Source: Desulfovibrio mangrovi
Lineage (GTDB): Bacteria; Desulfobacterota; Desulfovibrionia; Desulfovibrionales; Desulfovibrionaceae
Assembly: GCF_026230175.1 (NCBI RefSeq)
Contig: NZ_CP104208.1
Span: 2,728,001 to 2,792,000 of the forward strand
Direction of reading: 5' to 3'
DNA length: 64,000 nt
The position numbers and the translations under genes were made by a program. The notes below the pieces were generated by a model that was given only the letters and a program-made list of their open reading frames with translations, was not told the origin of the DNA and searched no databases. The number at the start of each line of letters is the position of its first letter. Position 1 is the first letter of the stretch. Shown one piece after another: positions 1 through 2,290 of the stretch.

Positions 1-351
1 CGGCTGGCTCTGAACAGCAAAGCATGGAACGAGCACGGCTACACCCCCTATCCCCGTTCCGAAAACCTGCATTCCGACAGAAGCAAAACGCCCTACTGCC
101 AGCAGCTTGAAGATGCCTACGCACAGGCCGGCGGCTCCATCACCAAGTTCCTGCTGAGCCCGACGGCAAAGGGAATATACGAAGCCGCCGCGCAGAAACT
201 GCAAGCCTATCAGATCGAACATCAGGAAAATGCCGCTGTTCTGCAGCAGGCCAAGCAATTCCTGCAGACCGTTCAGCCCGGCATTCCCCATATCCAGATG
301 AGTGATGCAGCACGGTATCTTAACACCCGCGCCATAGCGCTCATGCCCTAG
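1..351 (+). CDS. 3' end of a protein of unknown function (5' truncated)
   Basis: The window opens inside a reading frame that runs 116 codons to a TAG stop at 349-351. The visible residues are soluble-looking, helical and rich in Gln and Ala, with no membrane segment and no motif I recognise. The reading frame follows the GC-rich codon use of the rest of the window. It points towards hisF and ends just before a hairpin that would terminate both. I cannot name it. It does not look like a tyrosine or serine recombinase end, so it does not obviously belong to the insert that follows. Confidence 0.6.
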   Translation, partial: RLALNSKAWNEHGYTPYPRSENLHSDRSKTPYCQQLEDAYAQAGGSITKFLLSPTAKGIYEAAAQKLQAYQIEHQENAAVLQQAKQFLQTVQPGIPHIQMSDAARYLNTRAIALMP

Positions 352-378
352 CGCCGGTTCGCTGCTGCCCAAATAAAA

Positions 379-403
379 AAGCCGCCCTTTCGGGCGGCTT
401 TCA
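379..403. terminator. Rho-independent terminator, probably the original hisF terminator
   Basis: A 9-bp stem (379-387 with 392-400, loop TTTC) is flanked by an A-run at 371-380, which reads as a T-run on the minus strand. It closes the plus-strand gene ending at 351 and would terminate a minus-strand hisF ending near 427. A near-identical hairpin sits at 1464-1487 beside the intact hisF. Confidence 0.7.
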
Positions 404-426: not shown

Positions 427-518
427 CTACCAGACCATGCGCATTTTCGCGCCCATGGCGTTGATCTGCCGCTTCAGGTCCGGAATGGTGTATTCCCCAT
501 AATGCACGATGGAGGCGA
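427..518 (-). pseudogene. Detached 3' end of hisF (about 30 codons)
   Basis: Positions 428-518 match 1512-1602, the last part of intact hisF, at 88 of 91 bases. Read on the minus strand, the three differences are all synonymous (Asp, Leu and Tyr codons), and the stop is TAG instead of TAA. The match breaks abruptly at 519, where the sequence becomes unrelated and A+T-rich. This is therefore a gene fragment rather than a gene. Synonymous-only divergence suggests the two copies come from two functional hisF alleles, not from a recent local duplication. The simplest reading is that this is the displaced end of the resident hisF, left when an element carrying its own hisF end integrated. Confidence 0.75.
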
Positions 519-640
519 AGGAACTAACAAAGACGTCGTCATGATCGAACCTCTAACCAAGAGACAATACACTTAAGCCGGCACAAGCGGTGTTCTCTAC
601 ATGCAAGACAACCGCAAAGTCATGCCCCCCTCGACAAAGA

Positions 641-669
641 TTGACACATATAAACTCCGCGAATATTCA
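641..669 (+). promoter_or_regulatory. Candidate sigma-70 promoter of the insert gene
   Basis: TTGACA at 641-646 is followed by 17 bp and TATTCA at 664-669. The predicted transcript would start about 35 bases before the ATG at 711. The -35 hexamer is perfect and the -10 is moderate. Confidence 0.4.
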
Positions 670-710
670 GACAATTAACAAGCTACAGCACAACCTACAC
701 CCTATACTCA

Positions 711-1454
711 ATGGTGCCCAATAACATGACGAAAGCTCCAACCTCTTGCGTTCTCAACCACGACGGAACATTGAAACGTTGGTTCATTATCTCAACGTTA
801 TCAATATGCCTATTAGCAACAATAGCAACATCTGACGATACATACATACACCCATCTCTCAGCAATCATTTATTAAGTCATATTTTGAACCATACAAACT
901 CTACGCTACACTCTATATCAACCTCGATACTCACAAGCATAATCTTTTATTACTTTGTTGTTTATCTATATGAATCAAGCAAAGTCAATCGTTTAAAAAG
1001 AATTCTAATAAAACCAGTTAATTTTATATTGGATACTAAAGACTCTGGGATATATTATTGGAGTAAAAATATATATTTTTGTGACAATACAATTTCTCAC
1101 GAGAAAGTTTCAGAATTCAAGAAATATTTATCAAACACAAAATTAAATGGCTTAGATATGAAATATACTCTAACGGCATGTTCAGAGTCATACCACACCT
1201 TCACCGCCCTAACCACAATTGCCGCCCAAATATCACCAGAGTGCCTAGCTCAATGGACTGGACTCACAAGAAGCATTCAGCTTCTTGCAGACTTAAGCTA
1301 TCGTTTTGAGAAAGAAACGCAACTAATCGATACCAATAACAAAAACTCATCGGAATTATTTCAAGAATATATAAGTTTATCCGACAAGAATAGGGAGGAA
1401 TACAAACTATACTTTGACGAATTCATTAAAATACTCGAGGACTTTCTACGATAG
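711..1454 (+). CDS. Two-helix membrane protein of unknown function carried by the hisF-end insert
   Basis: The protein has 247 residues. Hydrophobic segments at about residues 24-40 and 69-88 suggest two membrane helices with a short outer loop, followed by a cytoplasmic domain of about 155 residues rich in Lys, Asn, Ser and Tyr. Codons favour A and T, in clear contrast to all neighbours, which points to horizontal transfer. No ribosome binding site is obvious before ATG 711, and the ATG at 726 is an alternative. It is the only gene in the insert. Single-gene cargo with membrane helices and a cytoplasmic domain is common among phage-defence or immunity genes, but that is only an inference; I recognise no family. 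Confidence 0.6.
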   Translation: MVPNNMTKAPTSCVLNHDGTLKRWFIISTLSICLLATIATSDDTYIHPSLSNHLLSHILNHTNSTLHSISTSILTSIIFYYFVVYLYESSKVNRLKRILIKPVNFILDTKDSGIYYWSKNIYFCDNTISHEKVSEFKKYLSNTKLNGLDMKYTLTACSESYHTFTALTTIAAQISPECLAQWTGLTRSIQLLADLSYRFEKETQLIDTNNKNSSELFQEYISLSDKNREEYKLYFDEFIKILEDFLR

Positions 1455-1463
1455 CCCAAACAA

Positions 1464-1492
1464 GAAGCCGCCCTTTCGGGCGGCTTCTTTAT
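1464..1492. terminator. Terminator between the insert gene and hisF
   Basis: A 10-bp stem (1464-1473 with 1478-1487, loop TTTC) is followed by TTT on the plus strand. It serves the insert gene and probably also hisF on the opposite strand. Its stem core is identical to the hairpin at 379-400. Confidence 0.7.
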
Positions 1493-1510
1493 GTATCTAT
1501 TGTCGGCTTT

Positions 1511-2290
1511 TTACCAGACCATGCGCATTTTCGCGCCCATGGCGTTGATCTGCCGCTTGAGATCCGGAATGGTGTATTCCCCGTAATGCACGATGGAGGC
1601 GATGAGCGCGGCGGTGGCCTTGCCCTTGGTCAGCGCATCATGCATATGCTTGGGGTTGCCCGCACCGCCTGAGGCGATGACGGGAATGGACACGGCTTCG
1701 GCAATCATGCGGGTCAGGGTCAGTTCATAACCGTCCTTGGTGCCGTCGGCGTCAATGGAGTTCACGCAGATTTCACCGGCACCGAGGGCTTCAGCGGTCT
1801 TGGCCCACTCGATGGCGTCCATGCCCATGTGCTTGCGGCCGCCGTGGATGACGATCTCATAGCCGGAGGGAATGTCTTCGGTCTTCTCCACCTGCTTCAC
1901 GTCCATGCCCAGCACGATGGCCTGCGAGCCGAAACGGACAGCACCTTCACTGATGATGTCGGGATTCTTCACCGCGCCGGAGTTCACGGAAATCTTTTCG
2001 GCACCGGCGTTCAGGGCATCGCGCATGTCATCCACGCAATTGATGCCGCCGCCCACGGAGAAGGGAATGAAGATGGTGGAGGCCACCTTTTCCACAACAT
2101 CAAGGAAGATGCCGCGGCCTTCGTGCGAGGCGGTGATGTCGTAGAAGACGATCTCGTCCGCGCCTTCCTCGTAATACTTCTTGGCGGTGAGCACGGGATC
2201 GCCGATATCCACGTTCCCCTGAAACTTCACGCCTTTGGTGAGAATGCCGTTACGCACGTCGAGACAGGGAATGATGCGTTTACTGAGCAT
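1511..2290 (-). CDS. hisF: Imidazole glycerol phosphate synthase cyclase subunit HisF
   Basis: HisF is a (beta/alpha)8-barrel that uses ammonia delivered by HisH to turn PRFAR into imidazole glycerol phosphate and AICAR in histidine synthesis. The 259 residues match the usual length. The two catalytic aspartates are present: Asp11 in the CLD motif and Asp130 in LGMD. The phosphate-binding VGGGI and ASGGAG segments are intact. Its start overlaps the end of hisH by 11 bp, so the two are translationally coupled. Its last 91 bp are duplicated at 428-518, and the 3' end present here may have been supplied by the insert. Confidence 0.95.
1512..1602. repeat. Second copy of the 91-bp hisF-end direct repeat
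   Basis: It pairs with 428-518 (88 of 91 identical, same orientation, offset 1084 bp). This copy lies inside intact hisF. Together they are attL/attR-like flanks of the A+T-rich insert. Confidence 0.75.

Follow-up and report, generated by a model that had tools for sequence, protein, structure and literature searches.

How does a single A+T-rich gene come to lie behind a housekeeping gene whose own last codons turn up a second time on the far side of it? The hisF locus of Desulfovibrio mangrovi raises this question. We analysed it in a window of 64,000 nucleotides (contig NZ_CP104208.1, positions 2,728,001 to 2,792,000), in which an intact hisF is followed by one inserted gene, here called X, and then by a displaced copy of the hisF 3' end (Table 1). 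Our answer is that X was probably added behind hisF through homologous recombination with the DNA of a related strain, without a dedicated integrase. Similar additions seem to have taken place at some other genes of this bacterium, a relative of Halodesulfovibrio, and of a related species. In what follows G000 is the bacterium's own genome (3.95 Mb), and G004 and G009 are congeneric genomes, G009 belonging to another species.

Table 1. Features at the hisF locus, in positions of the window
Feature	Position	Strand	Remarks
Deaminase gene, 3' part	1..351	+	lies between lysE and the displaced hisF end
Native hisF terminator, bidirectional hairpin	369..400		near-identical hairpin 3' of hisF in G009
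Displaced hisF 3' end	428..518	-	29 codons and two bases of the TAG stop; sharp edge at 518/519
Non-coding DNA upstream of X, putatively incoming	519..710	+	GC 0.45; donor side of the junction
Gene X, inserted	711..1454	+	247 aa; GC 0.34; the only ORF in the insert of 60 aa or more
Second terminator copy, putatively incoming	1455..1489		between gene X and the live hisF; 88% over 32 nt
hisF	1511..2290	-	259 aa, intact; last 91 bp (1512-1602) are the live repeat copy; Pfam His_biosynth

The two copies of the hisF end are identical at 88 of 91 bases. They differ at 475 (C/G), 478 (G/A) and 499 (A/G), all three differences are synonymous, and both copies give the same 29-residue translation, followed by TAG in the displaced copy and TAA in the live one. 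An earlier note on this DNA had described the repeat in these terms, and alignment and translation confirm it. A random substitution in these codons is synonymous in 23% of cases, so that three silent changes out of three have a probability of about 0.012; such all-silent differences would be expected of a functional allele arriving from a relative. The displaced copy shares its base with G004 and G009 at 475 and 478 and the live copy does so at 499, while the HisF protein as a whole is 98% identical to that of G004 and 97% to that of G009. Three differing sites are too few to separate a homologous from a site-specific crossover. Their polarity was considered as a sign of site-specific crossover and set aside, as it fits any crossover.

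The 91 bp are right as far as they go, and the duplication is longer: 367-518 aligns with 1454-1602 over 153 columns at 87% identity, the hisF terminator included. On the gene side the homology stops abruptly at the 518/519 edge. On the outer side it fades gradually, much as it would between the intergenic regions of relatives. The hairpin in the outer part can be called hisF's own terminator because G009 has a near-identical one directly 3' of its hisF. The 22-mer AAGCCGCCCTTTCGGGCGGCTT matches exactly at 379-400 and 1465-1486 and nowhere else in the whole 3.95-Mb genome, in which its 18-nt core occurs four times. Between the hisF stop and the hairpin the spacers have diverged (27 and 25 nt). 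A terminator scan of both strands listed a hairpin at 377-402 only, and missed 1465-1486 despite the identical 22-nt stem-loop. The promoter with which the insert had been credited was not confirmed: a consensus scan gave no sigma-70-type match upstream of 711. Rfam models returned sub-threshold matches only, and nothing above threshold.

What was inserted is, as first described, A+T-rich and holds one gene: the insert has a GC content of 0.37, and X lies below even this, against 0.58 for the window. In the X protein, two stretches are moderately hydrophobic (mean Kyte-Doolittle values of up to 1.57 and 1.64). They begin near residues 21 and 66, and the protein probably consists of two membrane-spanning segments and a C-terminal soluble part. 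It has no family match in Pfam (E up to 1), PADLOC 2.0.0 (E up to 1) or NCBIfam (E up to 0.1), and two weak matches in PHROG (E 0.026 and 0.35). Relatives of X are absent from the phage and plasmid records, IMG/VR and the genome contig collection that were searched, and the non-coding DNA at 519-710 has no relative in the DNA searched. With the own genome counted, matches to X were found in 6 of 199 family genomes at E up to 0.01 and in 2 of 348 genomes of the class at E up to 0.001. Those in other genomes, e.g. an acyltransferase-like protein in G125 (E 3.2e-4), were judged from their translations to be membrane-segment coincidences.

One homologue of X is credible, and it lies in the same genome, at 1,527,465. 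The two proteins are 42% identical over 73 aa (E 2.8e-4), and their alignment score of 101 compares with a maximum of 70 in 1000 shuffles; BLASTP by itself gives a short match (E 0.007), and the homology covers residues 22-95 of X only. In its prophage the homologue comes after the Ogr/Delta zinc finger gene and the portal gene; candidates for a defence function in the vicinity are a KAP NTPase that matches PDC-S20, and PDC-M11A/B. This prophage region (L044:6088-7596) has A+T-rich genes behind the Ogr/Delta gene, and the homologue is shorter than X. The part after its stop, in the longest other open frame, gave no convincing alignment with X (P 0.036 against shuffles, and in an unexpected part of X), so that a frameshift near L044:7345 is a guess. 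As the homologue sits beside phage genes, X is best called phage-linked. We regard it as probably an accessory, phage-linked membrane protein, perhaps with an anti-phage function, a role that we infer.

Do relatives share this arrangement? The earlier note had asked for empty sites, and these exist: in G004 and G009, hisF and its single end are followed by the terminator and then by lysE, with no X in between. The deaminase gene, which matches Pfam dCMP_cyt_deam_1 in its 5' part, has a homologue in G004 on the same contig as hisF (C161:909-1361). Of the ten genomes of the genus, each has hisF and G000 alone has a second hisF end. It is also the only such genome among the 288 of the family, 268 of which gave a match, in a search with a 33-aa query at E up to 0.01 that shorter remnants would escape. 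The arrangement is thus neither common to all relatives nor without an empty site. We further collected 89 hisF loci (80 plus nine of the genus, partly from the same contigs), of which 86 have at least 1 kb of downstream sequence. The top repeat score in these 86 stretches is 40, against 167 for the window; the two best repeats elsewhere (L187 and L253, both from other species) look like GC-rich coincidences. No genome among those searched has X beside an undisturbed hisF, and the donor strain is therefore hypothetical.

An integrase was sought in the same places. With five of the six integrase matches of the own genome as queries, in a search whose control recovered known integrases and whose scope did not extend to serine recombinases, no homologue was found in the 86 downstream stretches (310,679 bases) or in 104 kb around the locus. 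A search for an attP-bearing virus found no viral contig with codons for the last ten hisF residues (arginine as CGN).

A similar pattern is found at a nitrilase gene (CN_hydrolase) 17 kb to the left of hisF. Here (G000:C1, about 2709909-2711594) 69 bp of the 3' part are directly repeated at 95.7% identity and a spacing of 919, with three of three differences silent and the translation identical. The repeat encloses one A+T-rich gene of the HEPN_AbiU2 family (Pfam E 2.4e-10). The nitrilase frame continues into this cargo gene, therefore the nitrilase end was not neatly restored. The same gene of G009 (C16:184351-186146) has 112-bp copies at 97.3% identity around an HNH endonuclease gene, so that one gene end has received different cargo in the two species. 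At least one of the three differences between the G009 copies is non-silent, a V to M change in the displaced copy. Decay of a dead copy would give such a change, and because of it silent differences are no general rule for these repeats.

The far end of the G009 nitrilase insert is informative about the origin of incoming DNA. There 83 bp are copied, at 96.4%, from the 3' terminus of a ybaK-like gene (Pfam tRNA_edit; 28 residues at 89%), and the native ybaK-like gene stands 0.8 kb further on, past one small gene. It is hard to see why an element with a gene end as attP should bring along the end of the next-but-one chromosomal gene, and a chromosomal donor piece is therefore favoured. The 83-bp copy shares 3 bp (GGC, in one orientation) with the displaced nitrilase end, an overlap that is weak alone. 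Nitrilase cases in two species, one of them holding part of a neighbouring chromosomal gene, tie the incoming DNA to the chromosomes of relatives. The recurrence could also be read as the mark of an attachment site.

How general are such scars? We surveyed 1.104 Mb (28%) of the own genome for direct repeats of at least 30 nt and at least 78% identity, spaced by 250-8000 nt. Four of the 25 pairs found enclose an insert with a GC content of 0.40 or less, against 1.5% of 1-kb windows (binomial P 5.6e-4), a count that includes the hisF case which prompted the survey and a palindromic ahcY terminator. That same terminator is the one low-GC case among eight pairs in an inverted-repeat control. In G009, 434 kb yielded 26 pairs, and the three at 0.40 GC or below after rounding are one Rhs-like locus and two overlapping pairs of a recR terminator.

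Starting instead from 40 A+T-rich islands (1.54 Mb, both genomes), eight have direct flank scores above both the 99th percentile (29) and the maximum (31) of a null of 320 mismatched flank pairs, and hisF scores 191. In the inverted control four of the 40 exceed 29, three of them with palindromic terminators, hisF among these. The eight islands are hisF, the G000 nitrilase, the ahcY terminator, the recR terminator, two Rhs-like loci, an unexplained G009 repeat (565k) and a marginal one at 2361601; the ahcY and recR terminators are palindromic and score as inverted repeats too. Only hisF and the G000 nitrilase are clear gene-end cases. The G009 nitrilase insert, with a GC content of 0.44, is outside this set. 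The signature is therefore recurrent but mixed. No shared motif was found between the repeats of different genes (14 pairs against shuffles, lowest P 0.07), and this speaks against one integrase. The names Rhs and M48 peptidase, like those given in passing for gene order, were assigned by reading.

Several other repeats were seen along the way. The end of a prophage spike-protein gene (Gp5_trimer_C) is repeated over 133 bp at 86% (G000:C1:1521404-1523832) around candidate defence PDC-M11 genes, outside the eight islands above. Beside ahcY, a 153-aa gene with a hydrophobic C-terminal hairpin (by reading) is flanked by the two palindromic terminator copies (G000:C1:2442405-2443235). Behind recR of G009, three terminator copies of about 40 bp flank an acyltransferase gene and an A+T-rich PIN_8 gene (G009:C16:327986-330655). 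Repeats of about 100 bp lie behind an M48-like peptidase gene, by reading seemingly the same gene, in both species (G000:C1:3137394-3139015 and G009:C16:565670-567804). Within G000:C1:1516208-1564153, a second copy (98%) of the 3' end region of a tRNA-Thr gene lies at 1543265, next to an integrase match that has an internal stop; related copies are at 1560510, 1562853 and 1564044. A 13-kb stretch at a tRNA-Ser gene (G000:C1:2219240-2232370) has an integrase match and repeats of about 166 bp (86%) at its borders, and has the look of a conventional island. Finally, G000:C1:2650140-2662631 holds a direct duplication of 5.7 kb at 99% identity with a spacing of 6.7 kb.

We propose the following route for X, in which both the arrangement of the donor and the order of steps are reconstructed. 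The donor would be a close relative with X directly behind hisF and its terminator. Its DNA would enter the ancestor and recombine with the resident hisF through one homologous crossover within the final part of this gene. On the far side, the incoming DNA may have been joined illegitimately into the resident hisF end, as in homology-facilitated illegitimate recombination. Alternatively, it may have arrived as a small circle with a hisF end, terminator and X that inserted in the manner of Campbell, as has been proposed for Rhs tips. The structure at hisF fits either form. In both, hisF would gain a working foreign 3' end, a terminator and X with no need for an integrase, and the old last 91 bp and old terminator would be displaced 1.08 kb downstream. 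The gene-end restoration described earlier thus holds up, with a close relative's incoming allele as its probable source, the old end displaced and no integrase found. The direct repeats on either side of the unit would allow host recombination to delete it later or release it as a circle.

The strongest competitor is the idea, close to the original claim of site-specific integration into a protein gene, that the hisF 3' end serves an integrase family as attB. The unit would then be either a non-autonomous member of that family or what remains of one (a degraded prophage or island, or a cis-mobilizable element), and X would be a moron or cargo left behind. Many integrases repair the gene end exactly and leave a repeat of about 90 bp, and here too the gene end is restored and the old end displaced with a sharp edge. 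The X homologue beside Ogr and portal genes of a prophage fits this idea, as does GGAATGGTGTATTCC, between 478 and 499, which reads as an inverted repeat of a size that is presumably close to that used by tyrosine recombinases. Yet no integrase homologue adjoins hisF here or in the 86 related stretches, none of the other 287 family genomes showed a second end to the 33-aa query at E up to 0.01, and no viral contig has the hisF-end codons. The terminator, moreover, was copied too, the repeats at other genes share no motif with that of hisF, and the nitrilase insert of G009 carries part of a neighbouring chromosomal gene. We therefore hold site-specific integration to be unlikely, leaving it an appreciable share of the probability because a restored end of 91 bp is typical of integrases and the donor has not been found. 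Homologous recombination with a relative's DNA explains the terminator copy, the lone case, the missing integrase, the absence of a motif and the chromosomal fragment together. As for the earlier label of a non-autonomous carrier, it may still apply more loosely: through recombination between the repeats, the host could excise the unit and insert it again.

A special form of homologous recombination, whose odds are counted within it, takes that last point further: single defence-like genes would be shared across the genus as small circles excised by RecA and tagged with a core-gene 3' end and perhaps its terminator, RecA inserting and removing them without a recombinase of their own. The direct repeats are long enough for host recombination, one nitrilase end has different cargo in two species, and the three recR terminator copies of G009 flank two genes. 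Neither a circle nor repeated transfer has been observed, however, a linear one-sided route yields the same structure, and the recR repeat is a terminator of about 40 bp; we find such a pool of circles quite doubtful. If it were real, any core gene end could be an address, and a displaced end would be the scar of each insertion. Gene ends do become duplicated in tandem, and one might also imagine that the hisF end was duplicated locally together with its terminator and that X was inserted between the copies in an unrelated event. This would require two events, and it has to accommodate differences that are all silent though one copy is non-functional, an insert of foreign composition and a like pattern at the nitrilase gene of two species, which together make it very improbable. 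Recombination with a relative's chromosome is thus the reading that we carry forward.

How does it relate to systems already described? In the minimal mobile elements of Neisseria, differing whole genes stand between the same conserved genes across strains, without mobility genes. The nitrilase gap fits this description; hisF differs, as no alternative cassette is seen there and the old gene end is retained as a duplicate. Cis-mobilizable elements and integrase islands have cargo without an integrase of its own, flanked by direct repeats of a gene 3' end. The hisF unit is likewise flanked and its gene restored, but the searches found no related integrase or full element for the hisF site and no repeated occupancy of it (1 of 288 family genomes; 86 downstream stretches). 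A close parallel is found in Rhs genes, for which Jackson et al. 2009 propose homologous recombination with small circular intermediates to account for C-terminal displacement (PMC2935791). There, as at hisF, a homologous segment brings new 3' material, and the old 3' end is shunted downstream of the new one with a variable stretch of conserved sequence; Rhs-like loci with this pattern (named by reading) are present in both surveyed genomes. Unlike an Rhs gene, hisF is a housekeeping gene outside the rhs family, the end of its protein is unchanged, and its cargo is a separate gene where an Rhs gene gains a new protein tip.

In transformable bacteria, homologous recombination at one end combined with illegitimate joining at the other is known (de Vries and Wackernagel 2002; Prudhomme 2002; Meier and Wackernagel 2003, as cited in PMC2884548 and PMC3784515). 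As outlined there, one end has a homologous anchor, the other is joined without homology, and no recombinase is involved. At hisF a homologous anchor, the hisF end with its terminator, is present on one side; the difference is that this event is read from a genome and comes with an end duplication. In E. coli P2 phages the portal-proximal (cos-proximal) locus is a defence hotspot, according to PMC9122126. The prophage homologue of X, next to portal and Ogr/Delta genes and near candidate defence genes, resembles this, whereas X at hisF has no surrounding phage genes in the DNA read.

According to PMC12829572, the movement of defence genes outside mobile elements is poorly understood, and homologous recombination is suspected. 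Among the entries listed for the terms and the library used, our literature search found no account in which displaced ends of housekeeping genes are taken as traces of the acquisition of defence genes. Such an end is a legible record of gene movement, and the one at hisF tells of an addition and not of a replacement: one phage-linked gene was gained at a housekeeping gene. A search of genomes for displaced 3' ends around A+T-rich genes would make this route countable.
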